Shown here one piece after another: positions 11,170-40,854 of a stretch of DNA of 64,000 nucleotides. Location: positions 292,995-356,994 of the forward strand of contig NZ_FNLC01000002.1 in NCBI RefSeq assembly GCF_900104065.1. Direction: 5' to 3'. The notes beneath the pieces are model-generated. The model was given only the letters and a program-made list of their open reading frames with translations, was not told where the DNA came from and searched no databases. The position numbers were made by a program, and so were the translations under genes. This DNA comes from Natronobacterium texcoconense. Its GTDB lineage: Archaea; Halobacteriota; Halobacteria; Halobacteriales; Natrialbaceae. Positions within the stretch are counted from its first letter, which is position 1, and each line of letters begins with the position of its first letter.

Positions 11170-12789
11170 TCACTCGAGATAGCCCAGATCCGCGAGTCGT
11201 TCTTCGACCGCCACGTCGTCCGTCCCGGTCGAGCGGTCGTCGTCCAGTCGGGGATAGCTACGAACGCCGGGCGAGTCGACACAGGGGAGGGGCTGGCCGT
11301 CCATCCGGTCGTCAACCGGGACGCCGAGCGTCGCCAGGACGGTCGGTGCGACGTCGAAGAGGTGGGCGTTCCCGACGCCCGCATCGTCGTCGATATCGGG
11401 TCCTCTGGCTGCAATGGTCCCCTCGAGTTTGTGATTCCAGGGTTCGGATGGCGGACCGAACTGTTCGTCGCGCAGCGTCGCCGAGAGGAAGTGGTCGAAG
11501 TCGGCGGGAACGGTGACCACGTCGACGGCGTCCTCGCTCTCGGGGCCGTGGAAGTACTCCTCACGGGGACGGACTGCCTCGAAGACGGGGTCGCCGTCGG
11601 GCGTCTCGACCGATCGGAGCGCGTCGATGATCCGCGTTCGGACGGCCTCGTACTCCTCCTGCGGGACGACGCCGTCGGGCTCTCTGCCCTCGAGGTTGAT
11701 CCGGACGCCGAGTTCGATCCGCGAACGGACGAACGCTCTCGAGGACGCGAAGTCGACCTGGGTCGCGCCCGCGTTGACGACGCTCGTCGGGGCGTAGTTC
11801 GCGACGGTTTCCTCGAGGCCGAATCGCTCGAGGACGGCGCCGATCCGCTGGCTGGTCAGCCCCAGGGTCGCGGCCGTCGCCATCGCCCGTTCGCCGAGGC
11901 CGGGTTCGCGGTCGGTGCTCGCGGTGCCGGCCTTGAGCGCGTCGTCGCGAACCGTCGCCCAGGTCGGCATCCCGCTGCCGCCGCGTTCGGTCTCGACGAG
12001 TCCCTCCGCACGGAGGTACTCGTTGATCCGGAACTCCCGGCCGTCGTACGGGCCCATCCCGTGGTCGCTGGCGAGGATCACGTTGTCCGGATCGCAGACC
12101 TCTATCGTCTCGGCGAGCTGGCGGTCGACCTCGCGGTAGGTCGCACGGATCGCCTCCTCGTTGTCGGGTTCCTTGTGGAAGATCGAGTCGGTCACCTGGA
12201 ACTCGAGGAAACCGAACTCGGGGTCGACCCGGTCGGCGAGGTAGCGAAACGCCTCGCCGCGCATGCGCGCACAGTCGCTGTAGCTCTCGGCGCGGTCGTC
12301 GATCGTTTCGTCGGGGTAGACGCGATAATCACCGATCTCTTCTCGAACGTCTTCGAGCAAGCCTTCGGGATGACAGTCGGGGTTCTCGGGCGCGGTGTAG
12401 CCCGGAATCAACGCGCCATCGAACTCCCGCGGCGGGTGGGTGACGGGAACGTTGACGACGACGCTCGAGTAGCCCCGGTCCGAAAGCAGGTCCCACAGCG
12501 CCCGCTCGCGGACGTCGGTCGCGTTGACCACGTCCCAGTCGTAGCCGTCGAAGGAGAGGAAGCCGTAGACCCCGTGCTTGCCGGGATTCTTCCCCGTGTA
12601 CATCGAGGGCCACGCGCTCGCCGTCCACGGCGGGATCTGGGACTCGAGCGGCCCACTCGCCGCGGTCTCGTCCTCGTAGAACGACTCGAGCGTCGGTACC
12701 TCGCCGTCGTCGAACAGCGGCTCGAGCACCCGTTCGCAGGCCGCGTCGATACCGACGAGCAGCGTTCGAAGCGAAGATCGATCCTCCAT
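11170..12789 (-). CDS. Alkaline-phosphatase-superfamily phosphodiesterase (type I PDE/nucleotide pyrophosphatase-like)
   Basis: The 539-aa protein has the metal-binding layout of the superfamily. LLVGIDAA near the N-terminus supplies the first Asp. PPWTASAWPSMYTGKNPGKHG carries the probable nucleophile Thr/Ser. TDSIFH and ASDHGMGPYDG give further Asp/His ligands. It ends in the tail EERLADLGYLE, shared with the paralogue at 27412-29019. ATG 12789 is used; a GTG at 12804 would add five residues. No signal peptide is visible, so it probably acts in the cytoplasm. The substrate is unknown; the surroundings suggest a phosphorylated glycan or lipid intermediate. Confidence 0.8.
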   Translation of the reverse strand: MEDRSSLRTLLVGIDAACERVLEPLFDDGEVPTLESFYEDETAASGPLESQIPPWTASAWPSMYTGKNPGKHGVYGFLSFDGYDWDVVNATDVRERALWDLLSDRGYSSVVVNVPVTHPPREFDGALIPGYTAPENPDCHPEGLLEDVREEIGDYRVYPDETIDDRAESYSDCARMRGEAFRYLADRVDPEFGFLEFQVTDSIFHKEPDNEEAIRATYREVDRQLAETIEVCDPDNVILASDHGMGPYDGREFRINEYLRAEGLVETERGGSGMPTWATVRDDALKAGTASTDREPGLGERAMATAATLGLTSQRIGAVLERFGLEETVANYAPTSVVNAGATQVDFASSRAFVRSRIELGVRINLEGREPDGVVPQEEYEAVRTRIIDALRSVETPDGDPVFEAVRPREEYFHGPESEDAVDVVTVPADFDHFLSATLRDEQFGPPSEPWNHKLEGTIAARGPDIDDDAGVGNAHLFDVAPTVLATLGVPVDDRMDGQPLPCVDSPGVRSYPRLDDDRSTGTDDVAVEERLADLGYLE

Positions 12790-12910
12790 TGGCGGGTGCT
12801 CCACGGGAAAGGGACTTGGTTATGGTCGCTGTTACGCGTCGAATTCGTTGCCTTCGGCCGGTCGGTACGAACCACGTGAATTTTTGGTGTAACGATCTAT
12901 TGGACGCAGT

Positions 12911-16153: not shown

Positions 16154-17179
16154 ATGAAGGAACGTTTGATCCGCCCGTTCGCGACCGGCTCCGGGCAGGA
16201 AATGGGAGTATTCGCCCGGATACCGACCGATCTGACCGGTCTCACCGTGTTCGTCCTCGGTGCGGCCACACTGCTTGCAGTCGTCGACGTCACGTCGCCA
16301 GTGATCCGCGCTTTCGTCGGCTTTCCGCTCCTGTTTCTCGCACCGGGCTACGCGATCGTTTCGATCCTGTTCCCGCGAGGCGTCCGGGCCGACCGAGACG
16401 AGACGCTGCCAGTGGTCGGCCGGACGGAGACCGTGACGGAGACCGAACGCGTGGCGCTGTCCTTCGGGTTGAGTTTCGCCGTCCTGCCGCTGCTCGGCCT
16501 GGGAATCGCCGCTACCTCCTGGCAGTACACGACGTCGGTCGTCGTCTGGACCGTCAGCGGTTTCGTCCTGGCCGCGATACTGCTCGCCGCCGTCAGACGG
16601 GCACGCGTCTCCCCCGCCGACCGGTACCGGTTCGAACTGCTGCGAAAGCTCGGTGCGCTCCGTGCTGCGATTTTCGACACCCGGTCGTCGACCACGACGG
16701 CGATCAACCTGCTACTGGTCGTCAGTATGGTGATCGCGCTTACGAGCGTCGGCTACGCTCTCGCCGCTCCCCAGGACGACGAACAGTACACCGACCTGCG
16801 ATTGCTTACCGAGACCGACGACGGCGAGTACGTCGCCGGCGACCTCCCCGACAGCGTCGAGTCCGGCGAGTCGATCCCGCTTATCGTCACCGTCGAGAAC
16901 CAGGAAGGCGAACACCAGGAGTACACAGCCGTCGTTCAGGAGCAGTGGGTCGACGACGGTGAGGTCCTCGAGCGCACCGAGTTACGCCAGATCGACTACA
17001 CACTCGGCGACGGGACGACGGGCCACGGGGATCGCACGGTCACGCCCGACGCGGACGCCGGCGAGGTCCGGATCGCCGTCATGCTGTTCGACGACGAGGT
17101 GCCGGAGACGCCGACGACCGACGACGCCTACCGCTACACTCACTTCTGGATCGAAATCGAGGACGACGACCTCGAGTAG
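16154..17179 (+). CDS. DUF1616 membrane protein
   Basis: This 341-aa protein has a membrane domain with four helices (first pair GLTVFVLGAATLLAVVDV and VIRAFVGFPLLFLAPGYAIV, followed by LFPRG, the DUF1616 hallmark). An extracellular beta-rich domain follows from about residue 205 (SGESIPLIVTVENQEGEHQEYT) and resembles a CARDB-like fold. DUF1616 proteins recur in archaeal glycosylation and surface-polymer clusters. The start could also be ATG 16202. Just downstream is another surface-glycan membrane gene in the same orientation. Confidence 0.82.
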   Translation: MKERLIRPFATGSGQEMGVFARIPTDLTGLTVFVLGAATLLAVVDVTSPVIRAFVGFPLLFLAPGYAIVSILFPRGVRADRDETLPVVGRTETVTETERVALSFGLSFAVLPLLGLGIAATSWQYTTSVVVWTVSGFVLAAILLAAVRRARVSPADRYRFELLRKLGALRAAIFDTRSSTTTAINLLLVVSMVIALTSVGYALAAPQDDEQYTDLRLLTETDDGEYVAGDLPDSVESGESIPLIVTVENQEGEHQEYTAVVQEQWVDDGEVLERTELRQIDYTLGDGTTGHGDRTVTPDADAGEVRIAVMLFDDEVPETPTTDDAYRYTHFWIEIEDDDLE

Positions 17180-17371: not shown

Positions 17372-19210
17372 ATGTCCGCTCACTCAGCCTCCGCCGCCGA
17401 ACCGCTCCGAAAGGTCGCCCTCGCGATCGGATTCCTCGCGCTCGCCGGCAGCGTCCTCCTGGCTCACTCGCAGCCGGCGACGGGATACGAACTGTCGCTG
17501 TTCACCTCGATCTCGCCGCTCTTCTGGGTGGGACTCCTGCTCGCGGTGGGGATCGCGCTGGCCGTCGCGTTCGTTCCGCCGTCCGGTATCGACGGCCACA
17601 GTCGAACGCGCCCCGTCGCCCTCCTGCTAGGTGGGCTCTCGATGGCCGTCTTCGCCGGACTCCCGATCGTGCGCGGCTATCGGTTCTACGGCCAGCACGA
17701 TGCGCTGACCCACCTCGGCTGGGCGCGAGCGATCAGCGAAGGGACGATGCTCCCGTTCGAACTGTACTATCCAGGGATTCACACCGCGACGACGCTCGTT
17801 CACTCGACGCTCGGCACGCCGCTGGAGCAGTCGATGCTGTACGTGGTGTTGCTCGCCGTGCTCGTCTTCTGCGTGTTCGTTCCGCTCGCCGTCGGAGCGA
17901 TCGTCGAGGATCGACGCGCGATGGTGATCGCGACGTTCGCCGCGTTTCTGCTCCTGCCGATCACGACCATCTCGATGTACATGTCCGCTCACGCGATGTC
18001 CCAGGCGGTCATGTTCTCGGCACTGCTGGTCTACCTGCTGGCGAGATACCTCCGGACCGACGGCTCGGCGTCGACGTTCTCGGCGATCGGCGTCGCGCTC
18101 TCGGTCGTAGCGATCGCGACCGTCGTCTACCACCCACAGCTGGTTGCCCACCTGATCGTCGTCTTCCTCGCGATCGTCGTCGTCCAGCACCTCGCGAGAC
18201 GCGTCGCGAGCGACGGACAGATCGCCGGCCAGACGGCGGTGTACGGCCACACACTCCTGCTGGTCGCGGTCTTTCTGGTCTGGACCTCGAACCACGGCTT
18301 CTTCGGCGGCATGATCCAGTACTTCCTCAGTTCGGCCATCGAGTTCATCCTCGAGGGGCGAGGCGGCGCTGACACCGTCGCAGCGCAAGGGGCCTCGCTC
18401 GCCGCGATTGGCGGCAGCCTGACCGAAATCTTCCTCAAGCTGTTTCTCGTCCAACTGATCTTCACGCTGCTGGCTGTCGCGCTCGCGTTCGGACTCGTCG
18501 GGTCACGGTCCACGTTACTCCGGCGCGTTCGCCCCGAAACGACGTACTTCACCGTCTCGCTCGTCGCTCTCGGCCCGATATTCGTGATCTACTTCCTCGC
18601 ACCGGGGTCGACGATGCACTTCCGCGTGTTCGGCCTGATGATGGTCTTCATTACGATCCTCGGCTCGATCGCAGCGTACGGCGTCTTCGCGTGGCTCTCC
18701 GATTCCGACGAGCCACGCTCGAGGGCGCGGCTCCCCGGTAGTCAGCCGCTTTTCGCCGTCGGCTTCGCCTGCTTGCTCGTGCTCTCGCTCGCGGCTGTCT
18801 TCCCCTCGCCGTACACCTACCACGCCTCGCCACACGTCAGCGACACGCAGATGGAGGGGTACGAAACGGCGTTCGACGGCCAACTCGAGGACGTCCAGTT
18901 CGTCGGGCTGCGAAACGGACCTAACCGGTACGACGACGCCGTGAACGGCAACGCCGAACGGATGGGACTGCACGAGGGGCCACCCGACGAAGGGGTCGGC
19001 GTGGGACTCGCCGACTACTACGACGAGGACCGGTACTTCGTCCTCACACAGACCGACTACGAGCGAGAGACGGTCGCCTATCAGGAGCTACGGTACACGG
19101 AAGGCGAACTCGAGTCGGTCTCGGACCAGCCTGGCGTCGACCGCATCCAGTCCAATGGCGAGTTCGAACTCTACTACGTGAACGCCGAACCGGAGTTCGC
19201 GGAAGCCTGA
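17372..19210 (+). CDS. Large polytopic membrane protein, GT-C glycosyltransferase-like
   Basis: The 612-aa protein has about twelve predicted helices. Early on, YGQHDALTHLGWARAISEG occupies the place of the acidic first-loop motif of GT-C enzymes, which transfer sugars from lipid-phosphate donors on the outer face. The last 130 residues after LVLSLAAVFPSPYTYHAS form an exterior domain. Family assignment is an inference from topology and that motif; it could instead be a polymerase or an unrelated haloarchaeal membrane protein. It follows the DUF1616 gene after 190 bp with its own AT-poor leader. Confidence 0.6.
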   Translation: MSAHSASAAEPLRKVALAIGFLALAGSVLLAHSQPATGYELSLFTSISPLFWVGLLLAVGIALAVAFVPPSGIDGHSRTRPVALLLGGLSMAVFAGLPIVRGYRFYGQHDALTHLGWARAISEGTMLPFELYYPGIHTATTLVHSTLGTPLEQSMLYVVLLAVLVFCVFVPLAVGAIVEDRRAMVIATFAAFLLLPITTISMYMSAHAMSQAVMFSALLVYLLARYLRTDGSASTFSAIGVALSVVAIATVVYHPQLVAHLIVVFLAIVVVQHLARRVASDGQIAGQTAVYGHTLLLVAVFLVWTSNHGFFGGMIQYFLSSAIEFILEGRGGADTVAAQGASLAAIGGSLTEIFLKLFLVQLIFTLLAVALAFGLVGSRSTLLRRVRPETTYFTVSLVALGPIFVIYFLAPGSTMHFRVFGLMMVFITILGSIAAYGVFAWLSDSDEPRSRARLPGSQPLFAVGFACLLVLSLAAVFPSPYTYHASPHVSDTQMEGYETAFDGQLEDVQFVGLRNGPNRYDDAVNGNAERMGLHEGPPDEGVGVGLADYYDEDRYFVLTQTDYERETVAYQELRYTEGELESVSDQPGVDRIQSNGEFELYYVNAEPEFAEA

Positions 19211-19254: not shown

Positions 19255-20445
19255 TTACCTCGAGAGCGGCTGATCGGGCCCGTCCGACCGAGAACCGCGG
19301 TCGTCGCGAACCGCCGACGACGTCCCACTTCGTTCTTCCTCGAGGACCGTCCGACAGAACTCCACGAGCCGTTCGGCCTGTGCCTCCCAGGAGTACTGTC
19401 GTGCCGTCCGGCGACCGGCGTCGGAGAGTTCGTCGCGGAGCGTCGGCGACTCGAGCACGCCCTCGAGTGTGCCCGCGAGTTCGTCGACGTCTTTCGGGGG
19501 AACGAGCAGGGCGTTTTCCTCGTGGGTGGCGTACTCCCTGATCCCGGGCAGATCGGTTGTGACGACCGGCAGTCCACAGGCCATCGCCTCGAGGTTCACC
19601 ATTCCGAATCCTTCGTACCGCGTCGGGTTACAGAAGACGTCACAGGCGGCGTAGTAGCCGGGAAGCGCCTCGTGGGGAACCTCGCCGACCAGCGCGACGG
19701 AGTCGGTGACACCGAGTCGTTCGGCTCGTTCGCGAACGGCCGTGCAGTCGCCGTCGCCGACGACGTACAGGTCGACGTCTCGCGGGAGGCGAGCGACGGC
19801 CTCGAGCAGTTCGTGAACGCCTTTCCCTTCCCGGACGCGACCGACGAAGAGGATCGACGGGCCGTCGGAAGTCAGTTTCGGCGTCGCCTGCGGTGTGAAC
19901 CGCTCGAGGTCCAGTCCCGGAGAGACGATACCGTCGACCGACCGATCGAGTTTTTCCGAGACCTCGCGGACGATCTGCTCCGAGTTCGCCAGGTGGACGC
20001 TCGTCGCACTGTATCGCTCCCGGATCCGTGCGCCGAGTCCGACGCTTGCGACGTTGTGATACTGGTAGACGGTCGGGACGTCGACCAGGTTCGAGAGCAC
20101 TGTATCCTCGAGAAATCGGTGCGTGAGCAGGACGTCGACGTTCTCGTCGACGTGCGAGCACAGTCCCGACCGGAGCCCGCTCACGAGCGGGAGCACGTCG
20201 GTGGCCCCGAGCGGAGTTCGCTGGTGGACGAACCGGCGCACGCGGTCGCTTTCGACTGGCGGAATACGGTAGAGCGAGACGTTCGACTCGAGCAGTGAGT
20301 CGGCGACGTCTTCGCGTCGCTCGAACCTCGTGTAGAGGAAGACGTCGTGATCTGCCGCCAGCTTGCGGGCGATCTGTCGGACGAACACCGCCTTTCCGCC
20401 GGCGCTTTTCGTCCCCGCGTGAGCGTGGTAGAGCCCGAGTCGCAT
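19255..20445 (-). CDS. GT4-family glycosyltransferase
   Basis: The 396-aa GT-B enzyme has an N-terminal acceptor domain beginning MRLGLYHAHAGTKSAGGKAVFV. The C-terminal donor domain includes PSILFVGRVREGKGVHELLEA and the nucleotide-sugar motif RYEGFGMVNLEAMACGLPVV (the E-x7-E pattern). It probably adds one sugar from a nucleotide donor to a lipid-linked glycan at the inner membrane face. It is divergent from the flippase gene, with about 180 bp between them for promoters. Confidence 0.9.
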   Translation of the reverse strand: MRLGLYHAHAGTKSAGGKAVFVRQIARKLAADHDVFLYTRFERREDVADSLLESNVSLYRIPPVESDRVRRFVHQRTPLGATDVLPLVSGLRSGLCSHVDENVDVLLTHRFLEDTVLSNLVDVPTVYQYHNVASVGLGARIRERYSATSVHLANSEQIVREVSEKLDRSVDGIVSPGLDLERFTPQATPKLTSDGPSILFVGRVREGKGVHELLEAVARLPRDVDLYVVGDGDCTAVRERAERLGVTDSVALVGEVPHEALPGYYAACDVFCNPTRYEGFGMVNLEAMACGLPVVTTDLPGIREYATHEENALLVPPKDVDELAGTLEGVLESPTLRDELSDAGRRTARQYSWEAQAERLVEFCRTVLEEERSGTSSAVRDDRGSRSDGPDQPLSR

Positions 20446-24467: not shown

Positions 24468-25709
24468 TCAGACGCGTCCGTTGTAGTGATTGTACGCTTC
24501 TCGCATGTCCCACAGGAACGGACGGACGTCGTCGACGCTTGCACAGTCGAACCGGGGGTGCTCGACCATCGATGTGACGATCTCCGACACTGCCGTCGTG
24601 AACGACGGTTTCTCGGCGAGATCGACGTCCTCGAACAGGATCGAACGGAGATAGAGCAGTTCTCCCCGGATCAGGTGTCCCGCGAGTCCTGCTTCGTACT
24701 CGTGGTCGATCCGATCCTTCCGGCCGTTCGCAAGCTGCCAGTAGTAGTAGGGGAAGTCGGCACCAGCCTGAACCGAAAACGGCAGCGACGACCAGAACCG
24801 GGGGTTGATCTCCATGAGTTTGAACTCGCCTGTCTCGTCGTCCCGCAGGAACTCGACCATCGCCAGGCCGTGCCACTCGAGGTGATCGAGCAGGTCCCGG
24901 CCTGCTTCCTCGAGGGCTGGAATCCGGACCGATTCGCGGAACGAACTCGCGCCGCCGGCGTAGCTGTAGCCGCGACGTTGTCGGTGCTGGAAGGTCGCGA
25001 CCGGTTCGCCGTGGTCGTACAGCGCGAAGAAGCCGTACTCCTCGGTGGTTGGGACGTACTCCTGTAACAGGGGGTCGTGGTCCATCTCCCGCCGGAATCG
25101 GTCGACGTCGGGCTCGGCACCCGGTCGGAGATACTCCGTCTTGGGCGGGTCGAGAAACTCCGCGGGCGAGTAGCGGTCGACGTACTCGTCGACGAGAATC
25201 GAGTACCGTGCCTTGACGATCCACTGGCGATCCCAGTCGTCGTTCGAATCGCCGAGCAACCTCGTCTCGGGGACGGCGACGCCGGCCGATTCCGCGGCGT
25301 CGAACAGCCGTACCCGGTCCTGGACGGATCGAAGCGTCTCGATGTCGGGCCACGGCGTGCTCACGTACTCGTCGAACTCGTCTCTGTACTTCGCGAGCAC
25401 GTAGACGTCGACGTCCCGGACGGGGATGATCGTCCGTACGTCGGGGCGCATCGCGATCGACAGTAGAGCGTCCTTGTACGCGACCAGATCCTCGTGTGGG
25501 GACGGCACCGGAACCGACTCGTCGCAGTACTTCGACCGGGTCGCCGGAACACCGTCGCGATCCGCGAGCGCGATGGTTCGGATTCGCTCTCCGTTCCGGC
25601 GGCCGAGCGATCTGAAACACGCGAGCGTACTCGGTGCCGTGATCGCGGGAACGGCGACCGAGCCGTCCGTCCAGGCGGCGTCTTCGGCCGTAGTCCCGCC
25701 ACTACCCAT
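24468..25709 (-). CDS. ATP-grasp carboxylate ligase-like protein
   Basis: From ATG 25709 the product has 413 aa. An N-terminal Rossmann-like part (VAVPAITAPSTLACFRSLG) is followed by an ATP-grasp fold with the lysine strand QWIVKARYSI, the hinge LLQEYVPTTEEYG, and the metal-binding MVEFLRDDETGEFKLMEINPRFW. ATP-grasp enzymes join a carboxylate to an amine or thiol through an acyl phosphate. In this context it could attach an amino acid or amino sugar to a glycan precursor. A longer form from ATG 25856 is possible, because TTAGTTAAG lies about 25 bp before it, but the extra 49 residues look unconserved and 25709 has its own AAGGTGG site. Confidence 0.82.
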   Translation of the reverse strand: MGSGGTTAEDAAWTDGSVAVPAITAPSTLACFRSLGRRNGERIRTIALADRDGVPATRSKYCDESVPVPSPHEDLVAYKDALLSIAMRPDVRTIIPVRDVDVYVLAKYRDEFDEYVSTPWPDIETLRSVQDRVRLFDAAESAGVAVPETRLLGDSNDDWDRQWIVKARYSILVDEYVDRYSPAEFLDPPKTEYLRPGAEPDVDRFRREMDHDPLLQEYVPTTEEYGFFALYDHGEPVATFQHRQRRGYSYAGGASSFRESVRIPALEEAGRDLLDHLEWHGLAMVEFLRDDETGEFKLMEINPRFWSSLPFSVQAGADFPYYYWQLANGRKDRIDHEYEAGLAGHLIRGELLYLRSILFEDVDLAEKPSFTTAVSEIVTSMVEHPRFDCASVDDVRPFLWDMREAYNHYNGRV

Positions 25710-30626: not shown

Positions 30627-31652
30627 TTACTTCAGTGAGCCGCTGACCCGCTGGTAGGCCTTCTTCGCCATCTGCATCTCGAGCCCCGACGACTCGATCA
30701 CGTAGTAGGGTCGCAACTCGCCGTTGAACTTCCCCTTGTACTCACAGAGCCGTTCCGTGTTCGCACCGACGAGGTCGTACCCCGTGATCGACTCGAGTTC
30801 GGGATCGGTGACGATGTCCTCGAGAATCCGGCGGTGCAGGAGGTTGTTGACGCTGACGTGCTCGTAGGAGGCGGTCACACCGCCTTGCCAGTAGTAGGCC
30901 AGGTCGTTCGAGAATAGCGTGAGGATGCCACTCTGGTACGTCCCGTCCGGACTCCGCGCCACGTACGTCCGCCACCGGTCGTCCTCGAGCGACGCGAGCA
31001 GATCCCGCAGAAACTGTCGGGTCATCGGTGCCTCGTCGTCGTACTCGGCGTACTGGTCGACGACGTCCTCGTAGATCCGGAGCGCGGCGTCGATCCCCTC
31101 GGTTTCGATCCGCAGGTCGAGGTCGTCGTACCGGCGCATCTCGTTTCGCAGGCTCTTGCTGAAGCCACTCATCGCATCCTCGACGTCGGTACAGCCCTCG
31201 AGGTCGACGACGTACGTGAACTCCGGTTCGACCGAGAGGTCGTTCCAGCCGTACGGTCGCGGATCGTCGTAGCCGACGGGACAGGTCATCCGGAACAGCG
31301 TCGACCGCCGATCGGCATCGACGTCCTCGAGGACGCCCGCCGCGAGTTCCGCGTTGATCCGCTCCCACTTGCGACGTTTCGGGCTGTTCGGGTTGATGAT
31401 CGGTCCGAGTCGCGGCACGCCCATCGAGACGGGTGGCGAGAAGACGGTTCGTCCGACGGGCCTGTCCTCGACGAAGACGGGGAGGAGTCCGACGGCCTGC
31501 TGTCCCTTGAACGCGCCGTACAGCCGCATTTCAGCGTCGGTGTGGGCGTCGAGTACGGCCAGCGCGTCCGGATCGTGGAACGTCTCGACGCCCGCGCCGG
31601 AGGACGGCAGCGCCGAGTCCCACTCCTCGAGATCCAGTCGTTCGATGTCCAT
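30627..31652 (-). CDS. FemAB-like GNAT-fold acyltransferase (second copy)
   Basis: The 341-aa paralogue of 14852-15862 shares QQAVGLLPVFVED, TVFSPPVSMGVPRLGP and ITGYDLVGANTERLCEYKGKF. It converges on the geranylgeranyl reductase gene with 26 bp between the two stops. Two copies in one cluster, each near an alkaline-phosphatase-superfamily gene, suggest two versions of one modifying step. The substrate is unknown; no export signal. Confidence 0.82.
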   Translation of the reverse strand: MDIERLDLEEWDSALPSSGAGVETFHDPDALAVLDAHTDAEMRLYGAFKGQQAVGLLPVFVEDRPVGRTVFSPPVSMGVPRLGPIINPNSPKRRKWERINAELAAGVLEDVDADRRSTLFRMTCPVGYDDPRPYGWNDLSVEPEFTYVVDLEGCTDVEDAMSGFSKSLRNEMRRYDDLDLRIETEGIDAALRIYEDVVDQYAEYDDEAPMTRQFLRDLLASLEDDRWRTYVARSPDGTYQSGILTLFSNDLAYYWQGGVTASYEHVSVNNLLHRRILEDIVTDPELESITGYDLVGANTERLCEYKGKFNGELRPYYVIESSGLEMQMAKKAYQRVSGSLK

Positions 31653-32127: not shown

Positions 32128-33354
32128 TCACTGCCTCGAGTCCCCAGCGACGGCCGTCGTCAGAATCCGTCTCCAGTCCCGTTCGGCCTGCTCGTAGGAG
32201 AACGCCGACCGAATTTCCGTCGCGTTCGCGCCGAGCGTTCGTCGCCGGTCGGAGTCGTCCAGACAGCGAGCCATCGCTGTAGCGAAGCCGTCGGGATCGC
32301 GGCCTGGAACGACGATCCCGTTTTCACCGTCCGTGACGACGTCGGGAATCGAGCCGACCGGCGGCACGATCGGTGGCAGTCCGATCGCCATCGCCTCAAG
32401 CATCACCAGTGGCAGGGCGTCCCGTCTCGAGGTGAGCACGACCGTCGCCGACCGCCGGTAGTACTCGAGCGGGTCGTCGACCCAGCCCGGGAGGTCGACC
32501 CGGTCGCGGAGGCCGTGGGCCTCGAGTTTCGCTTCGACCTCTTCCCGGAGGGGACCATCGCCGACCATGACTGCCCGAAACTCGCGGCTCTCGTCACGGT
32601 TCTCGAGCGCGATCAGCGCGTCGGCGAACCGTACGGGATCTTTCTCCTCGCTGAACCGGCCGACCCAGACGAAGTCGTACTCGCGGTCGGCGTCCGTTTG
32701 CTCGTCACACTCGAGTGTGTCCGGCCGATACCGTTCGACCTCGATTGCGTTCGCCAGGATTTCGATCCGGTTACGGGACACGCCACACGCCTCGAGGTCG
32801 TCGACGTGGGAGGGCCCAGGCACCGAAACCGCGTCGAATCGCCTGAACGCCCACCGTGGAGCCGCGCCGTACCACTGTCTGGCGTGATGATCGAGGTCGA
32901 TTCCGATGATTCCGAGTGACGCAGGGTAGCCGTAGATAGCCTTCAACGCGAGGGCGTAGAGTCCGTAGGGCAGCAGCGAGATGGAGGCGACCGCGTCGTA
33001 GTCGTTCCTGTACCCCTCGAGTAGCGCGAGGAAGAAGAGGACGACGATCCGCAGCGGCCGAGGGCCAACGTCGGGCACCTCGAGATAGTCCGCGTCGTCG
33101 ACGTCGTACCGGGGCTCGAGACAGACGAGCGTCGTCTTCTCCGCAACGGCAGCGAGCGGTCCGTAGTGGCGCTCGTTCTTGTGTGCGAGCCCGGAGACGA
33201 CGAGTACTCGCAGCTCCTCGGGAACTGGGTCGATGTCGACCGGACTCGAGCGTTCGGACTCGAAGGGGTCTCGGCTCGCTGTCTCGCCGTCTGTGGAGTC
33301 ACTTTCTCCCGGCCTCGAATCCGACGCTCCGCTCTCGGTAGCGGTTCGGCTCAT
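32128..33354 (-). CDS. GT4-family glycosyltransferase
   Basis: The 408-aa enzyme has a 50-residue acidic/serine-rich lead, then a GT-B fold. YDFVWVGRFSEEKDPVRFADAL and MVGDGPLREEVEAKL mark the donor domain. The E-x7-E region is present as LPLVMLEAMAIGLPPIV. It overlaps the upstream gene by ATGA, so the two are translated together. Confidence 0.88.
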   Translation of the reverse strand: MSRTATESGASDSRPGESDSTDGETASRDPFESERSSPVDIDPVPEELRVLVVSGLAHKNERHYGPLAAVAEKTTLVCLEPRYDVDDADYLEVPDVGPRPLRIVVLFFLALLEGYRNDYDAVASISLLPYGLYALALKAIYGYPASLGIIGIDLDHHARQWYGAAPRWAFRRFDAVSVPGPSHVDDLEACGVSRNRIEILANAIEVERYRPDTLECDEQTDADREYDFVWVGRFSEEKDPVRFADALIALENRDESREFRAVMVGDGPLREEVEAKLEAHGLRDRVDLPGWVDDPLEYYRRSATVVLTSRRDALPLVMLEAMAIGLPPIVPPVGSIPDVVTDGENGIVVPGRDPDGFATAMARCLDDSDRRRTLGANATEIRSAFSYEQAERDWRRILTTAVAGDSRQ

Positions 33355-34721
33355 ACCTCGGTCGAGAGTTCTCGCTGTCGCCGATCGCGTTCCTGTGATT
33401 CCTCGGACGCCGATTCGCGCTCCCGTTCTCGTTCGCTACACGAACGCAGGAACTCCGAGGTCGCGTACGACATCCACGCCTGGCACCACCGCATCAGGGT
33501 GACGCGTTTCGTGTGGTGGCGGTACGTCCGGTAGTAGAACCGTCCCTGCTCGCCGTCGACCTGCATGTTCGCCAGCGTCCACCGGAGGATCCGCTCGGCG
33601 AACTCGAGGTCGCCCTCGCGGGTGAAGACCAGGATTCCCTGCGTGCTCGCGTGAATGTCCCGGGGATAGGCGTTTTCCTCGTCGAAGTTCGGCGCGCCGT
33701 CGAGCTGGAAGAGCTCGGTTCGGTAGAACTCGAGGCCGTCCTCTAAGGTCTCGTCGTAGCGGTCGGGGTCGACGACGTCGCGGTACCGCTGGAACGCCTC
33801 GACGACGAACCCGTTGTGGTGGTTGTCCATCGAGAGGTGGGAGGCGTCGGCCGGGAGGCGATACGGCCAGCCGCCGCGGTCGGTCTGGCAGGCCGCAACG
33901 TGATCGAGGATCTTCGTCGCTCGCTCGCGGAGTTCGTCGTCGCCGAAGTAGTCGTAGAGATCGACGAGCATCGCCGCGCCGAGCGCCGCCGCGTTGATCG
34001 TGTAGGAGTCGTCGGGGTGGTTCAGGTGGTAGTCGATCTTCGCGCCCTCCTCGACCTCGCGGTAGTTCAGGTCCTCGACGAGGAAGTCGGTCGCCGTTCG
34101 TGCGAGGTCGGCGTAGGAGGCGTACTTTTCGCGGGTCTCCGCGTCGAGGTCGACGTCTTCGCGTTCGGCGAATTTGGCGGTCCGAAGCAACGCTTTGACC
34201 GCGAACGACGTCGAGACGATGTCCGGATCGCTCGGGACGCCCTTCGTGTGGAGGTGCTGGATCGGATGGCGGTGGCCGCCACAGAAGCCGCTGTAGTCCG
34301 TGAGCCGTTCTTCGACCAGCCAGTCGGCGAGCCGGTCGGCCTCGAGCAGCGGGTCGAACGCGGCGAGAGAGGGGGCCGTGTCGGTCCGATCCGCGACCAG
34401 GTCGTAGTAGTTCAGGTTCGCCATCGTAAACAGTGCGGTCCCCTTGTAATTTCGCCGCTCTTCGACCCGGAAGAGCGGTCTGACGTCGATCGGGGCTCGC
34501 TTGACCGTCTCCTGAACGGCCAGATTGAGAAGCCTGTTCTCGACCGGCAGCGCCTGCAGCAACTGGCTACTCAACCCGTCGCCGTAGTCCGGGCCGACGT
34601 AATCCCGGCGGCGAGCGTAGGCGAGCGTCGCGTCGAGCACGGGGAGATACGCGTCGTGCTCGGGCGCACTGGAGACCGGCTGCACGTCGTCGTCTGACTC
34701 GAGAAGTCCCTGTGACTGCAT
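33351..34721 (-). CDS. Alpha/alpha-toroid protein (terpenoid-cyclase-like fold) in a glycosyltransferase operon
   Basis: The 456-aa protein shows repeated helix pairs with spaced motifs such as GGWPYRLPADASHLSMDNHHNGFVV and THGTQGILVF-like DIHASTQGILVF. That is the pattern of (alpha/alpha)6 toroids seen in prenyltransferase/terpenoid-cyclase and glycan-lyase or epimerase folds. Related haloarchaeal proteins often have unhelpful labels such as antibiotic transporter permease; no membrane helix is visible here. Translational coupling to the GT4 gene suggests a role in polysaccharide handling, perhaps as an epimerase, lyase or glycosidase. The C-terminal 30 residues are rich in Glu and Arg. Confidence 0.65.
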   Translation of the reverse strand: MQSQGLLESDDDVQPVSSAPEHDAYLPVLDATLAYARRRDYVGPDYGDGLSSQLLQALPVENRLLNLAVQETVKRAPIDVRPLFRVEERRNYKGTALFTMANLNYYDLVADRTDTAPSLAAFDPLLEADRLADWLVEERLTDYSGFCGGHRHPIQHLHTKGVPSDPDIVSTSFAVKALLRTAKFAEREDVDLDAETREKYASYADLARTATDFLVEDLNYREVEEGAKIDYHLNHPDDSYTINAAALGAAMLVDLYDYFGDDELRERATKILDHVAACQTDRGGWPYRLPADASHLSMDNHHNGFVVEAFQRYRDVVDPDRYDETLEDGLEFYRTELFQLDGAPNFDEENAYPRDIHASTQGILVFTREGDLEFAERILRWTLANMQVDGEQGRFYYRTYRHHTKRVTLMRWCQAWMSYATSEFLRSCSERERERESASEESQERDRRQRELSTEV

Positions 34722-34900
34722 CTACGGACACCTGGCAACGTATTCCTATTATTATACACTCGCTACCGTCGACCGAGCCGGTCGCCGTCGAATCGCAGGA
34801 AGGGACTTGCCTCGCGTCCGCCGGCCGTTACGATCGGTACGAGCCTGATAACAAACCCCCTCGACGGCTCACCGTTCGATCAGGAGACGATACCGTCAGC

Positions 34901-36019
34901 ATGAGATACCTGTTCTTCACGAACACGCCGGCCCACGTCCATCTGTACAAACACGCGATCGGGCGACTCGCGGATCGCGGGGACGAGGTCCTCGTCCTGG
35001 CCCGGGACTACACCTGTACGGTCGACCTGCTCGAGTGGTACGACCTCCCCTTCGAGGTCTACGGCTCGTGTGACACCTCCAAGGGGTCGCTGCTGAGTCG
35101 GCTGCCGGCCCACTACGCGCGAGCGATCCGGCTCGCCCGGCGCTACGATCCCGATCTGATCTTCGGGATGGGTGGCTACGCGGCTCACACCGGTGCCGTC
35201 GTCCGGACGCCGACGGTGTTGTTGATCGATTCCGAGCCAGCCTCGTTCGATCACACCATCTCGACGCCCTTTGCCAGGGCCGTCCTCACCCCCAACACAT
35301 TCCGGAAAGACCTCGGCGAACATCACTACGTCTTCCCCGGATTCAAGGAGTGTGCGTACCTCTACCCCGAGACGTACGAGCCAAATCCCGAGATCCGCGA
35401 CCAGCTCGGCCTCGAGACCGACGAGCCCTACGCCATCCTCCGGCTCAACGCCTTCGGCTCCCAGCACGACGTCGGCAAACGCGGGCTGACTGGCCCGGAT
35501 CGCCGCCGAATCGTCGAACGACTCGCCGAGGACGTCACAGTGTTGATCTCCGACGAGAGCGGCGAGGCCGACCTCGAGGATCTTCCAGCACGCCGGTTCG
35601 ATCTCCATCCGGCGCTGATGCACGACGCGCTCGCCGAGGCGAGTCTGCTCGTGGCCGACACGCAGACGATGGTCACGGAGGCTGCCCTGCTCGGAACCCC
35701 CGCGATCCGCTCGAACTCTTTCGTCGGCGACGACGACATGGGGAACTTCGTCGCACTCGAGAACCAGGGATTGATCCACAACGTCGCCAACGCGGAGGGG
35801 ATCGTAGAGCGCGTCGACGACCTGCTCGAGGACGAGACCGTCGACGAGACCTGGCAGCGGCGTCGCGACGAGTTCCTCGCGGACAAGGCGAACCTCACGG
35901 AGATCATCGTCGACGTGGCGACGGTTCGCGGAGCGGTCGAAGAACTGGAATCGGTACGCCAGTTCGGACGACGACCAGAACGCGACCCAGTCCAGTCGGT
36001 CGGCGTGGGTGGCGACTGA
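34901..36019 (+). CDS. DUF354 protein (GT-B-like)
   Basis: The 372-aa product begins MRYLFFTNTPAHVHLYKHAI and contains DLIFGMGGYAAHTGAVVRTPTVLL and SLLVADTQTMVTEAALLGTPAI, the blocks of DUF354. The family has a glycosyltransferase-B/UDP-GlcNAc 2-epimerase-like fold and is common in archaeal polysaccharide clusters. ATG 34901 is used because the fold starts there; the upstream frame to 34712 looks noncoding and contains an AT-rich promoter region (34742-34756). It ends 15 bp before the convergent MFS remnant. Confidence 0.85.
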   Translation: MRYLFFTNTPAHVHLYKHAIGRLADRGDEVLVLARDYTCTVDLLEWYDLPFEVYGSCDTSKGSLLSRLPAHYARAIRLARRYDPDLIFGMGGYAAHTGAVVRTPTVLLIDSEPASFDHTISTPFARAVLTPNTFRKDLGEHHYVFPGFKECAYLYPETYEPNPEIRDQLGLETDEPYAILRLNAFGSQHDVGKRGLTGPDRRRIVERLAEDVTVLISDESGEADLEDLPARRFDLHPALMHDALAEASLLVADTQTMVTEAALLGTPAIRSNSFVGDDDMGNFVALENQGLIHNVANAEGIVERVDDLLEDETVDETWQRRRDEFLADKANLTEIIVDVATVRGAVEELESVRQFGRRPERDPVQSVGVGGD

Positions 36020-36034: not shown

Positions 36035-36500
36035 TCAGGTTCGAGGCATCCGTAGCGTCAACAGTATTGCGACGGCCATGATCGCGGCCAGAGCGAAATA
36101 CCCCTGATCGAAGAAACCGTACTCGGCGACCACGCCGAATATCACCGGTCCGCCGGCACCGAGCGTCGCTGTCGCCGTTCGAATGACGCCCAGGCCTGTT
36201 CCCTGCATCTCCGCCGAGAACGAGTCAGCCAGGTACGACTGCGTGATTGCACCCGAGCCGAGCATCGTGCTGATGAGAGCGGTAACACCGACGAGGGCCC
36301 AGAGATTCTCGACCATCGGAAGCAGGCCGAATCCGACGACCGGCGGGATCAGGATACTCACCAGCGAGCCGCGCATCCCGATTCGGTCGTATGCGGCTCC
36401 AGCGACCGGTTTGACGACGACGCCGACGGCGAAGAACAGTCCGAACAGGACACTCGCCACCGCCGGCGAGAGCTCCTTAACGCTCGTCAGGTACGTCGGG
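36035..36500 (-). pseudogene. MFS transporter, 5' truncated at the insertion element
   Basis: The frame encodes the C-terminal part of a major facilitator (YLTSVKELSPAVASVLFGLF, VVKPVAGAAYDRIGMRGSL, five or six helices). It opens in the terminal hairpin of the adjacent IS and so lacks the N-terminal half of the usual 12 helices. The missing half is not on the far side of the element, where a different gene ends. Insertion was therefore followed by deletion or rearrangement, or the IS came with the break. Its substrate cannot be inferred. Confidence 0.8.
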
Positions 36501-36506
36501 TGAACC

Positions 36507-36529
36507 GCCTCGGGGTCAAGCCCCGAGGC
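36507..36529. repeat. IS end hairpin beside the tnpB 3' end
   Basis: A 9-bp stem (GCCTCGGGG/CCCCGAGGC) with loop TCAAG lies 11 bp beyond the tnpB stop. It is the likely RE subterminal hairpin, and in TnpB systems this region forms the 3' part of the guide (omega) RNA scaffold. Confidence 0.8.
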
Positions 36530-36539
36530 TTCCCATGGA

Positions 36540-37817
36540 TTAATCAGACACTCCCATCCGACCATCGGCTTGATAACCTCGGGTAGTCGGGTGGGTCACG
36601 GTCGGGGCGTCCACGGCCCCCGATGCCTGCCGTCGCACCTTCCGAACAACGGGAAGGCTGTTGAGAGCAGGCACATTCCAATCTTGGTGTTTCTCGATGC
36701 CTTTCACAGCGATGTTGACGCTTGCACCACGGTCACTGTGGTCTTGATGCCCACAGTCTCGGCACTTAAACCGCTTCTTGTTGCGGTTTGCACGCTCTGT
36801 ATGTCCACACATCGGACACCGTTGGCTGGTATATTCAGGATTAATCCAACCAGTCGGGATGCCCTCGAACGAGGCCTTGTACGACGTGTAGTATTGGAGC
36901 GCACGGAACGGCAGGTGGTGCAAGCGGCGGTTCATCCGTGTGCCGTAGTCGATACTGTCGCGCATCTCTTTGAGGTCTTCAAAGACGATGCACGGTTTCT
37001 CGAACTGACGGCTCCACTCCACGATATGCCGTGACACCTTGTGGAGCCGATCACAGACGAACCGTTCCTCCCGTCCTTCGAGCGTGTCGTGAATGCTGTC
37101 CTTCCCCGTGTTCTGGACACGCTTTCGCATTGTGAAATAGCGGTGGCGCTCAAATTTGATTTCGGGGAAGTCGATGACCAGCGTGTCCTCAACTCCATCT
37201 TCGGAGAGAGCGGTAACAGCCACGTTGTCCTCGTTCACGTCCACACCGACGACTGTCCGTGAGTCCTGCTTGTCTCGAACTGTCTTTTCGGTGTTGGTGA
37301 CGTTGATGTGCAGCTCGGCGGTGTCGTTATGGAACAGGGCTTCTGCCGTCCCGATGTTCCACTCGTCACTTTCGAGTGCAATCTTGAGAATGTCGAGGTG
37401 GGTGTCACTCCCTTGGAGAACGCCCTTGACGTGCTTGTACGGCTTCGCGCTAATGCGAAACGCCACGTCGCCGTCGTCAGTGAGTGACAGGTTGTACCCC
37501 TCCTCGTAGTTCGCACGAAGTGGGTACGTGCCGTCCTTCGTGTGACTCGGAAGTCCGAAGTCGTCGTACTCGTGGTAGTTCTCCATCGCGCCGAGTGCTT
37601 TGGCGACGACTCGCTGAGTCGTGTTCTTCACGAGATCGGCGTCGTCGGCCACTCGGTCAGGGATCGCATTCCAGTCTACGCCTTCTTTTGCCAGTCGGAT
37701 CGTCTCGTTGTACACCGACCGGGCTTCAAGCGTGGCGTCGTACAACAGACCCTCGTTGTCACTGTGGGTGTCGAGTTGGAAGTCCAGCGTCTTGACGAGG
37801 GGCTGTGAGTCGGTCAT
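36540..37817 (-). CDS. tnpB: TnpB, RNA-guided nuclease of the IS605 family
   Basis: The 425-aa protein appears complete. The RuvC-like triad is visible: D193 (VVGVDVNED), E280 (CIVFEDLKEM) and D362 (DHSDRGASVNIA). The zinc finger CPMCGH (C334, C337) and CRDCGH (C352, C355) lies between the last two. The N-terminal REC/WED-like region is normal. TnpB proteins are ancestors of Cas12 and cut DNA with a guide RNA derived from the element's right end, which helps keep the IS in place. It overlaps the accessory gene by ATGA. Confidence 0.92.
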   Translation of the reverse strand: MTDSQPLVKTLDFQLDTHSDNEGLLYDATLEARSVYNETIRLAKEGVDWNAIPDRVADDADLVKNTTQRVVAKALGAMENYHEYDDFGLPSHTKDGTYPLRANYEEGYNLSLTDDGDVAFRISAKPYKHVKGVLQGSDTHLDILKIALESDEWNIGTAEALFHNDTAELHINVTNTEKTVRDKQDSRTVVGVDVNEDNVAVTALSEDGVEDTLVIDFPEIKFERHRYFTMRKRVQNTGKDSIHDTLEGREERFVCDRLHKVSRHIVEWSRQFEKPCIVFEDLKEMRDSIDYGTRMNRRLHHLPFRALQYYTSYKASFEGIPTGWINPEYTSQRCPMCGHTERANRNKKRFKCRDCGHQDHSDRGASVNIAVKGIEKHQDWNVPALNSLPVVRKVRRQASGAVDAPTVTHPTTRGYQADGRMGVSD

Positions 37818-37994: not shown

Positions 37995-38022
37995 TTAACT
38001 GTGTCGGTGGAGTGGGTTCGAT

Positions 38023-38499
38023 ATGGGCGAGAAGCGGTCGAATCACACGGTGTACAACGTCAACTACCATTTCGTGTGGTGTCCGAAGTATCGCCACGCG
38101 ATTCTCGAACCAATCGAGGACTCGCTGGAAGCGAGTTTCCGCGACGTGTGCGACGAGTACGGTTACGAGATACTGTCGTTACATATCTCACCCGACCACG
38201 TACACCTGTTCCTCTCCGCTCACCCGAAACACGCACCGAGCGACATAGTACGGGCGATCAAGAGTATCACGGCACGAAAGATGTGGAAACAACACGAACC
38301 GTACTTGGAGGAGTATCTGTGGGGTGGTGGGTTCTGGGAACAGTCATACTACATTGGAACGGCAGGACAGGTTTCAAGCAAGACTATTGAACGCTATATC
38401 GAACGAACAGACACGTTTGAGTGTCGGCTTCACCCTCGGGGTCAAGCCCCGAGGCACTCGCCTTGTTCTTCTGTAGAACGAACGATCCGGGCTACGTAG
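38023..38499 (+). CDS. tnpA: TnpA, Y1 HUH transposase of IS200/IS605
   Basis: The enzyme has the HUH motif PDHVHLF (H59, H61) and the catalytic Tyr in TIERYIERTD (Y125), so the active site looks intact. Typical TnpA proteins end soon after that helix, at about 130-140 aa. Here the frame continues to 158 aa through the end hairpin (HPRGQAPRHSP) and past the likely IS boundary, so the last residues are probably host-encoded. GGTGGAGTGGG precedes the start. Confidence 0.88.
   Translation: MGEKRSNHTVYNVNYHFVWCPKYRHAILEPIEDSLEASFRDVCDEYGYEILSLHISPDHVHLFLSAHPKHAPSDIVRAIKSITARKMWKQHEPYLEEYLWGGGFWEQSYYIGTAGQVSSKTIERYIERTDTFECRLHPRGQAPRHSPCSSVERTIRAT
38434..38454. repeat. IS end hairpin beside the tnpA 3' end
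   Basis: An 8-bp stem (CCTCGGGG/CCCCGAGG) with loop TCAAG, identical to the core of the hairpin at the other end and in the same orientation. It lies within the tnpA reading frame. Confidence 0.8.
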
Positions 38500-39820
38500 A
38501 CTGCGAGCGCGCTCTCGCCGCCCACGCAGCGGTCAGAAGCAAGAGAACGCCCGCAGCGACGCCGAGTTCGAACCCGGGAACCGACGAGGCATAGCCCTCG
38601 GCCGTGGATCGGGGCTCCTGGGTTTCCGCGACGGTCAGCCCCTCGAGCGAAGACACCTCCGCGGTGAAGTGGTAGGCTGCACCCGTCTCGTCGGTCAGGG
38701 CCGTCTCGGATTCGTTCCACTCGCCGCCGTCGTTCTCGTAGAGTGCGACGTGGTCGGGCTCGAGGTCGTGTTCGTCGAGCGTGGCGGCGTCGACGCTGAA
38801 CGTGACCGTCGCCGTGACGTCCTCCGGACCGGAGCTCGCGAGCGAACCGATCGATTCGCTATCGCTGGGGGAGGCCGGGAGTCCCTCGGGCTGGCTGCTC
38901 TCGAAGGCGAACGTCCCGGAGCCCTCGAGGTCGGTCACGTCGACCCGCTCGAACTGGACGCCATCGTCGCTTCCGTTCGTCGGCTGGAGGCGAACGACGT
39001 CGTCCGCCGAAGCGTCGTCGACGGTAGCGGTGATGCCGTCGCCGGTTCGGTCGTAGGTCACCGAGGGATCGTCGCAGGTGCCGGTCCGGATCGTCACCGG
39101 TTCGGAGAGCGAGGTGAGTTCCGAGCGGTCGGGGTTGTTCGCGTCACCCGAGAGGACGTGCCACTCCTCGATCTCGCCGCCGTCGTACCAGTCGGGGTCG
39201 TAGAGGTCGTCGTTCTCGTAGTACTCGGCGTCCTCGTTGAACGCCGGGTGGACGGTAACCGCGAACGGATCGTTGAGGCCGCCCTGGATCGCGCCGCCGC
39301 CAGTGCGACTCTCGATCCAGATCCAGTCGGCGCTGGCCCAGCCGTCGCCGCGGTCGAACTCGTCCATGTTTGTCGGCCCGTCGTAGTCGTCGTTCTTGAC
39401 CTCCCAGTCGGCCTCGTGGGGGAGTCCGACGACATCGAAGGTCGCGACGCCGCCGGTCGTGTTCCCGTCGACCCGGTCGTGGACCATCACGAGGCTAACG
39501 CCGTCCGTCCCCTCGTGGAGGAAGAGAAGACTCGCGTTGTTCTCCTGGAGGTGGTCGGTTCCGTAAGAGCTGTACATCCGATCGACTCCCTCGGGATGGG
39601 TCTCGTGGTTTCGGTAGTCGTAGAACGAGTCGACGGACTCGGACGTCGACAGCGGTTCGATCTGCTGGCAGGCGTCGCCCTGCTCGACCACGTAGGAGTG
39701 GACCGACGTATTGTCCTCGTCGGACTGGGCGACCGCGCCGCCGGCAATGCCGCCGACGCTCCCGAGGACGACGAGCACGACGACTGCGACGACCATCAGT
39801 CCCCGCTTGCGCCCGGTCAT
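38492..39820 (-). CDS. PGF-CTERM surface protein, secreted
   Basis: The 442-aa precursor has an N-terminal hydrophobic signal (MVVAVVVLVVLGSVGGIAGG, then AVAQS) and a C-terminal sorting signal, SVPGFELGVAAGVLLLLTAA followed by an Arg-containing tail. In haloarchaea this tripartite signal is cut by archaeosortase A and the protein is lipid-anchored. The body is acidic and has several N-glycosylation sequons (NNTS-like, NGSD, NESE). It is coupled by ATGA to the upstream deacetylase. Its C-terminus lies against the IS, but the sorting signal is intact. Confidence 0.85.
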   Translation of the reverse strand: MTGRKRGLMVVAVVVLVVLGSVGGIAGGAVAQSDEDNTSVHSYVVEQGDACQQIEPLSTSESVDSFYDYRNHETHPEGVDRMYSSYGTDHLQENNASLLFLHEGTDGVSLVMVHDRVDGNTTGGVATFDVVGLPHEADWEVKNDDYDGPTNMDEFDRGDGWASADWIWIESRTGGGAIQGGLNDPFAVTVHPAFNEDAEYYENDDLYDPDWYDGGEIEEWHVLSGDANNPDRSELTSLSEPVTIRTGTCDDPSVTYDRTGDGITATVDDASADDVVRLQPTNGSDDGVQFERVDVTDLEGSGTFAFESSQPEGLPASPSDSESIGSLASSGPEDVTATVTFSVDAATLDEHDLEPDHVALYENDGGEWNESETALTDETGAAYHFTAEVSSLEGLTVAETQEPRSTAEGYASSVPGFELGVAAGVLLLLTAAWAARARSQST

Positions 39821-40854
39821 GATTCACCCCTCGCGGCCGACAGATCGCTCCGTAGTGGCCTGGTCGTCGCGGGTTCGGCACTGTCGTCAACGGTTCGTTC
39901 TCGAGTCGTCTCTCGGGTTCGCCCGTCCGCGTCTTCGACTTCGGCGGACTGCAGGTCGTCCGACTCGAGCGTCTCGCAGAATCCCTGCGGTGAGCCGATC
40001 CAGGCCCCCATCTCCGCTGCTCGCTCGACGAGCCAGCGGTAGAGTCGTCGGTAGCCGGGGAACTCCCGCTCGCTGAAGAAGCGTGGATGCCACAGGGCCG
40101 TCATCACGGCGTCGTTCTCGGCGGCCTCAGTCAGCAGTCGCTCGCAGGCTCTTCTGGCGGCCTCGAACTCCTCGTCCGGATCCGGCAGTGCCTGATCCAT
40201 GATCGTCAGCGGGAAGACCAGGAAGTCGTCTCCGAACGGCCGTCGTGGGCGGTAGCCGTGGTAGAACCCACACGCCGTCGTCGAACCGAGACTCGCGTCG
40301 TACTCGAGGCCGATCTCCCGATAATGGCGCCACGTCTCGGGGACCGACAGCCGGAGGTGGTGCTGTCGGCCGCCCGAAATCGAGTCGCCGACGACGCGCT
40401 CGAGTACGTCCTTCTCTTCGCGGAGCCGCGTTCGGTCGTCGCGGGTGTGATAGGAGCCGTGCAGACCGATTTCCCAGCCGCCGCCCTCGAGCCGTTCGAC
40501 GACGTCGACGAGGTCGTCCTCGGTGAGGTCGTACCGCCCGAGGTGTTGAACCCAGTGTGCCGGCGAGAGCCAGTCCCGGACCGGCCGGTCCCTGAACAGG
40601 TGCTGTTCGTTCAGGAAGTAAAACGCCGATCGAACGCCCAGGTCGTCCTCGAGGGCCATGATCTCCTCGAACTGCCAGTAGGGGTTGTCGTCGCCGAGGA
40701 CTGTCCGGAGGTGGTAGGCCGGACGCTCCTGGGTCGCATAGTACAGCCCACGAAGCCCCTTGTACGGACGGTCGACGTCGTGAGTGAGGCAGAGCGCGAA
40801 CTCGGCGTCTTCTGGGAGGGCGTCTGCCTCGAGCGCGCGATCGAATTCGGTCAT
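39817..40854 (-). CDS. Polysaccharide deacetylase-like protein
   Basis: From ATG 40854, with GGAGGA close upstream, the product has 345 aa. LCLTHDVDRPYKGLRGLYY supplies the metal Asp and His in the style of divergent NodB domains. IGLHGSYHTRDD gives the His pair, and MTALWHPRFFSE a late His. The tail after about residue 300 is charged and unstructured. The stop overlaps the start of the PGF-CTERM gene, so the enzyme and the surface protein form a two-gene operon. Substrate unknown. Confidence 0.8.
   Translation of the reverse strand: MTEFDRALEADALPEDAEFALCLTHDVDRPYKGLRGLYYATQERPAYHLRTVLGDDNPYWQFEEIMALEDDLGVRSAFYFLNEQHLFRDRPVRDWLSPAHWVQHLGRYDLTEDDLVDVVERLEGGGWEIGLHGSYHTRDDRTRLREEKDVLERVVGDSISGGRQHHLRLSVPETWRHYREIGLEYDASLGSTTACGFYHGYRPRRPFGDDFLVFPLTIMDQALPDPDEEFEAARRACERLLTEAAENDAVMTALWHPRFFSEREFPGYRRLYRWLVERAAEMGAWIGSPQGFCETLESDDLQSAEVEDADGRTRETTRERTVDDSAEPATTRPLRSDLSAARGES

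Follow-up and report, generated by a model that had tools for sequence, protein, structure and literature searches.

A widespread haloarchaeal surface-glycan locus with a candidate Wbp/Vim-type deacetylase and aminoacyltransferase module

The window, the whole 64-kb stretch of DNA that we analysed (C2:292995-356994), lies in a 4.0-Mb haloarchaeal genome with Halobiforma and other Natrialbaceae as close relatives. We called genes from open reading frames and codon-position GC and named them with Pfam and NCBIfam, obtaining the following features in the locus under study:

11170-12804, minus strand: PDE1, a PF01663 type I phosphodiesterase-like protein (Pfam, 114 bits) without a signal peptide or transmembrane (TM) segment
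14852-15862, minus strand: FemAB1, a PF13480/FemAB aminoacyltransferase-like protein of the VimA/TIGR03019 type (Pfam, NCBIfam)
16154-17179, plus strand: a conserved DUF1616 membrane protein with an extracellular domain (Pfam, 333 bits)
17372-19210, plus strand: TM612, a polytopic protein with 12 TM-like segments and a weak DUF6541 match, candidate GT-C-like polymerase or transferase
19255-20445, minus strand: GT4a glycosyltransferase (family match), in the variable part
20628-22091, plus strand: Wzx-type flippase (family match)
22411-24399, plus strand: S662, an exported 662-aa protein outside known families, with a Tat-type signal (RRSYLKAAG) and beta-helix-like repeats
24468-25856, minus strand: ATP-grasp ligase (family match), in the variable part
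26037-27158, plus strand: Deac1, a NodB-type deacetylase (PF01522, family match) with no match to the VimE model
27412-29019, plus strand: PDE2, a PF01663 phosphodiesterase-like protein (Pfam, 163 bits)
29113-30600, plus strand: lineage-specific FAD protein of the geranylgeranyl-reductase family (TIGR02032, 169.9 bits; cut-off 158.8)
30627-31652, minus strand: FemAB2, a core aminoacyltransferase-like protein (PF13480, family match)
32128-33354, minus strand: GT4b glycosyltransferase (family match), with a 4-bp overlap with the toroid gene
33351-34721, minus strand: toroid, a cytosolic (alpha/alpha)6-barrel protein with an AGE/GH76-like fold (AlphaFold2 model)
34712-36019, plus strand: DUF354 GT-B-like protein (26.4 bits; cut-off 22), divergent to the toroid gene
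38492-39820, minus strand: PGF442, an exported beta-sandwich protein (sequence, model) with a PGF-CTERM tail, PGFELGVAAGVLLLLTAAWAARARSQST
39817-41031, minus strand: Deac2, a VimE-like NodB-type deacetylase (NF053580, 64.2 bits), with an ATGA overlap with the PGF442 gene

Pfam, NCBIfam and the fold model confirmed every enzyme class named in a preliminary description of this DNA, which had omitted the DUF1616 protein, the Tat-exported S662, and a TnpB-family gene (NF040570, 131.7 bits) that overlaps a 176-aa MFS fragment between the DUF354 and PGF442 genes (window positions 36035-37817). GC content is about 64% across most of the locus and falls to 58% at the TnpB gene; the MFS piece, shared with another genome (G112) and with Halobiforma nitratireducens, could therefore be a gene in decay. 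Just beyond the locus lies a gene of the PF02522 aminoglycoside 3-N-acetyltransferase family (44303-45118, 302.8 bits). The flippase, identified by its family match, is as expected of a Wzx-dependent polysaccharide locus, and no locus protein gave a Pfam match to an initiating phosphoglycosyltransferase. FemAB1 and FemAB2 share 35% identity. Judged by its sequence, TM612 is plausibly a GT-C protein, four of 10 homologues matching DUF6541 weakly; sequence searches of the PDB with DUF354, TM612 and a toroid profile returned nothing convincing.

The toroid protein is found in 45 of 146 Halobacteriales genomes, representing 22 of 56 genera. Two edges recur around it: one runs PDE1-FemAB1-DUF1616-TM612, followed by Wzx and the Tat protein, and the other FemAB2-GT4b-toroid-DUF354-PGF442-Deac2. 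Between them lies a variable middle comprising GT4a, the ATP-grasp ligase, Deac1, PDE2 and the geranylgeranyl reductase. Among 79 named loci, a set that includes loci shortened by contig ends, DUF354 is present in 51, FemAB2 in 48, Deac2 in 45, GT4b in 41 and PGF442 in 25; TM612 is found in 18 of 31 neighbourhoods and S662 in 13, and the adjacency of PDE1 and FemAB is kept in relatives. Because many genera show this gene set side by side, the association is not due to chance, and the locus is a genuine unit with conserved edges, widespread across many haloarchaeal families. The combination had initially been described as unusual; the set is in fact common in haloarchaea, and the genes do co-occur elsewhere, with the core genes syntenic across many families. 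The special lipid role also suggested at that stage is not supported, the geranylgeranyl reductase occurring in the window and one congener, outside the core; we rejected it as a core lipid-modifying part, as it is absent from nearly all relatives. PF01663 enzymes occur among GPI phosphoethanolamine transferases too, but we dropped the idea of a GPI-like anchor, as PDE1 and PDE2 lack TM segments and signals and nothing else supported it.

The window genome also contains a paralogous second surface-glycan cluster (C2:229000-275000; L089-L091), in which FemAB1 (51%), PDE1 (57%), PDE2 (53%), DUF354 (51%) and Deac1 (51%) have counterparts at the identities given, together with DUF1616, TM612, a wbpD-E-B-A operon and glmS. 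Deac2, toroid and PGF442 were not found in this second cluster (C2:229-275 kb). Farther afield, toroid homologues of 32-34% identity occur in planctomycete metagenome-assembled genomes (L174:4367-6736 and L175:9953-11188), one with a DUF354 relative nearby and one with a single 789-aa frame that joins toroid and GT4 enzyme.

The AlphaFold2 model of the toroid (pLDDT 92.5) has the (alpha/alpha)6-barrel fold of AGE-family epimerases, with cellobiose 2-epimerase (9l8i) as a close structural match (VIA Z 31.3, 3.2 Å, 340 residues) and GH76 tied at 30.6. From this model, the protein is likely a uronic-acid or sugar epimerase or a glycosidase. The haloarchaeal N-glycan enzymes AglQ and Agl32, a sugar isomerase/epimerase pair, resemble the toroid in being soluble and in having AGE-family epimerases among their nearest solved structures (PMC3827465, PMC13308652); in Agl32, a C5-epimerase with the same nearest folds as the toroid, the AGE active-site residues are missing (PMC13308652). 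No relative of the toroid was found in the aglB clusters of 10 genomes, and its conserved motifs, HLSMDxHHNGF and DIHAxxQG, are particular to its family; we set aside a possible homology to AglQ/Agl32, since there is no profile match in these aglB regions and only the fold class is common. A toroid paralogue (52-60% identity) adjoins an ATP-grasp gene (26-29%) in a small separate locus, at C1:141904-143100 and in three further genomes (G063, G035 and G006). The copy in the window genome has an in-frame TAA within the match. The different setting of these paralogues suggests that toroid proteins have another role as well.

Deac2 and the 18 homologues scanned all match one NCBIfam model, VimE (19 of 19; best E 7.4e-20); in Porphyromonas, VimE is the presumed deacetylase in the making of the linking sugar. 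The score of Deac2 lies far below the 440-bit cut-off of NF053580, which none of the 146 haloarchaeal genomes searched reaches. As VimE is the sole model matched, and below cut-off, we regard Deac2 as a VimE homologue rather than an equivalog. Similarly, 12 of 19 FemAB proteins match TIGR03019, the FemAB family associated with PEP-CTERM, FemAB1 with 25.8 bits against a cut-off of 260. VimA also matches TIGR03019 (Veith et al. 2020, PMC7468200), and this common match is the only tie between VimA and the FemAB proteins. The FemAB family profile further matches the lipid II:glycine glycyltransferase of Staphylococcus aureus (6snr, E 1.3e-6). Acyl groups of other kinds may also be transferred by enzymes of the FemAB fold, a point against the proposed chemistry. 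Among control genomes, the VimE model is also matched below cut-off in Haloferax volcanii and Methanosarcina acetivorans, and the former match may offer a testable homologue in a model organism. The open-access literature yielded nothing relevant on VimE or VimA in archaea, nor did we see in it an amino-acylated sugar from haloarchaea.

In Porphyromonas, WbpA/B/E/D together with VimE and VimA produce a uronic sugar with a 2-N-aminoacyl and a 3-N-acetyl group, to which sorted proteins are attached (PMC7468200). Looking through 146 genomes for a WbpD-type acetyltransferase and the VimE-like gene, we found WbpD in 80 of 80 genomes with the VimE-like gene vs 20 of 66 without it (Fisher 1.8e-22, phylogeny ignored); FemAB is present in 79 of the 80. 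Deac2 and WbpD are no more than 20 kb apart in 54 of 80 genomes, and Deac2 and FemAB in 63 of the 76 with listed coordinates; all three fall within 20 kb in 49 genomes from at least seven families, against a rough chance expectation of ~1% for such proximity (random placement in a 3.5-Mb genome). This physical clustering is independent of the Fisher values and so is unaffected by the ignored phylogeny. Haloferax mucosum encodes wbpD-wbpE-wbpB-wbpA-deac2-toroid-femAB1-femAB2 on one strand (L134:3217-13673), and the toroid gene, flanked in Haloferax by the VimE-like gene and the FemAB genes, may thus encode an enzyme that works on the same sugar chain as their products. In the window genome, wbpD-E-B-A lies outside the locus itself, in the second cluster described above, as an operon-like array with overlapping ends (C2:271965-267724, ~21 kb upstream of the window). 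Its products match a nucleotide-sugar dehydrogenase, UDP-GlcNAc 3-dehydrogenase (the top NCBIfam match of WbpB), a PLP aminotransferase and a NeuD-type acetyltransferase, the last two assignments being at superfamily level.

From the observations, namely which genes are present and conserved, which families and folds they resemble, and how they co-occur, co-localise and overlap, we infer the enzymatic steps and their chemistry as follows. WbpA/B/E/D, whose genes lie upstream on the contig of the locus, would convert UDP-GlcNAc to UDP-2,3-diacetamido-2,3-dideoxy-uronic acid, and the GT4 and DUF354 enzymes would build a lipid-linked chain. Deac2 would take off one N-acetyl group, FemAB1 and FemAB2 would aminoacylate the amine exposed in this way, and the toroid would epimerise or trim a residue of the chain. 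Wzx would then flip the chain, TM612 would polymerise or transfer it outside, and PGF442, made together with Deac2, would serve as a membrane-anchored surface partner. Our best reading of the predicted product is an amino-acylated di-N-acetyl uronic acid of the Wbp/Vim type. Overall, we propose with moderate confidence that the locus is dedicated to an AglB-independent surface glycan and has an archaeal Wbp/Vim-type module at its core.

It is possible, if doubtful, that this is instead an ordinary polymorphic capsule or exopolysaccharide (EPS) locus, whose deacetylase and FemAB proteins N-deacetylate and N-acylate common HexNAc residues and whose tie to wbp only mirrors the aminouronic acids of most haloarchaeal polysaccharides. 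Conserved edges around a variable middle are the usual capsule or O-antigen plan, N-acetylglucosaminuronic acid has a precedent in the EPS of the haloarchaeon H. mediterranei (cited in PMC5467301), and WbpD occurs in 20 genomes without Deac2. The converse is never seen, however, as all 80 genomes with Deac2 have WbpD, and VimE is the one deacetylase model that Deac2 matches.

We consider it quite unlikely that the locus serves a further pathway of protein glycosylation, in which its glycan would go to S-layer or pilus proteins by way of the distant AglB or of an O-glycosyltransferase. The genome does encode AglB, and the toroid belongs to a fold class common to AglQ and Agl32 (PMC3827465, PMC13308652). 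The aglB gene, however, lies ~560 kb away (C2:896349) and the only artA on another contig (C1:463235); the 64-kb window contains no match to AglB or ArtA, in agreement with the preliminary description as regards AglB. Among 122 good genomes, artA is present in 122 and aglB in 121, so phylogenetic profiling against these genes, which had been put forward as a test, ties the locus to neither, and the locus itself is patchy (toroid in 45 of 146 genomes). Ten aglB neighbourhoods (31-40 kb) contained no toroid, FemAB, Deac2, PDE, DUF354, DUF1616 or TM612 homologue and had only generic GT4 and Wzx genes in common with the locus. Their lack of locus-specific genes indicates a separate glycan system, bearing out the earlier suggestion of a glycan locus apart from the AglB pathway. 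Finally, the TnpB gene, the MFS fragment and the variable middle might point to a hypervariable island where unrelated genes have gathered by chance; core-gene synteny across many families contradicts this reading, which is scarcely credible.

Within the proposed Wbp/Vim-type system, PGF442 is the candidate surface protein. Its C terminus consists of PGF, a TM segment and a basic tail, as for ArtA substrates, and predicts processing by that enzyme. The Deac2 and PGF442 genes, which overlap by 4 bp in the window, are direct neighbours in 14 of the 19 loci with both, with a median overlap of 4 bp. The exact PGF motif is present in 13 of 22 close orthologues (the window protein counted); in a second set of 22 complete family members, mostly encoded near FemAB, PDE1 or DUF1616 genes in haloarchaea of other families, the motif is exactly PGF in 15 and another GF-type variant in six, with TM segment and basic tail. 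At the sequence level, an archaeosortase-type tail is thus usual in the family but not invariant. Strict conservation of PGF was rejected: some orthologues, those of Natrinema/Haloterrigena among them, lack the motif or have a changed form of it, which weakens the case for obligatory sorting. FemAB and PGF442 are no more than 20 kb apart in 30 of 39 genomes, which is not an unbiased estimate because the PGF442 set was hand-picked and is skewed to hits near the locus. The best PDB relative of PGF442 in a fold search, 4dlo (E 1.2e-3, TM-score <0.3), was unconvincing.

Two PGF-CTERM proteins had been noted in the window, and both exist, but only that at 38492-39820 is in the locus. The second (61500-62486), which ends PGFGAVAVLVALLSVLALRSRPE, lies 20 kb off beside housekeeping genes and is unlinked to it. 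A phosphatidylserine-decarboxylase family gene (56593-57297, 108 bits), 15 kb from the locus, is of the PssD type, which in Haloferax volcanii has been linked to lipid anchoring that depends on ArtA.

Archaetidylethanolamine has been proposed as the ArtA acceptor (PMC7157517). As an alternative to such an ethanolamine-lipid acceptor, ArtA might transfer PGF442 onto an amine-bearing linker sugar produced by the VimE-like deacetylase and FemAB, an idea that we regard as rather unlikely; if true, an archaeal protein would here be joined to a surface polysaccharide in the manner of sortases. In the simpler view, PGF442 would receive a lipid anchor from ArtA (PMC7157517) and hold the polymer or help assemble it.

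Three known systems resemble the locus. The haloarchaeal EPS clusters of Haloarcula hispanica (HAH_1661-1667, PMC5467301) and Haloferax mediterranei also feature GT4-type enzymes, a polysaccharide biosynthesis protein and an acidic polymer, but, compared by description, the published text names no FemAB, VimE-like or PGF-CTERM gene. The XrtA/PEP-CTERM EPS loci (Haft et al. 2006, PMC1569441) likewise combine GT4 enzymes, a polysaccharide deacetylase, a TIGR03019-like FemAB protein and a CTERM protein; this exosortase parallel, drawn in the preliminary description, is strengthened by the TIGR03019 matches in 12 of 19 FemAB proteins and by the PGF-CTERM protein being a conserved member. Unlike those loci, the haloarchaeal locus has no sortase gene, its FemAB falls below the cut-off, and ArtA is universal whereas the locus is patchy.

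A more specific match, absent from the preliminary description, is the Wbp/Vim linking-sugar pathway of P. gingivalis and Tannerella forsythia, and what is new here is the recognition by sequence of a VimE-like/TIGR03019-type/WbpD gene set at a haloarchaeal locus. In common with that pathway, described in a section of PMC7468200 that does not treat archaeal genomes, the haloarchaea have WbpA/B/E/D, VimE-like and TIGR03019-type genes that co-occur and cluster, and a surface protein with a C-terminal sorting signal is tied to the locus. The systems differ in that the archaeal host has neither an outer membrane nor A-LPS and the sorting enzyme would be ArtA rather than PorU; the VimE and TIGR03019 similarity is at superfamily level only, the toroid and PF01663 enzymes are extra, and the archaeal system is known from genes alone. 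The attachment targets of exosortases and archaeosortases are largely an open question, and Veith et al. speculated in that section that exosortase systems use a similar amino-acid-modified sugar (PMC7468200). The physical coupling of a deacetylase/FemAB/wbp set to a PGF-CTERM protein extends this acceptor idea to Archaea, and Haloferax species, with the whole set in one array, provide a place for testing it.
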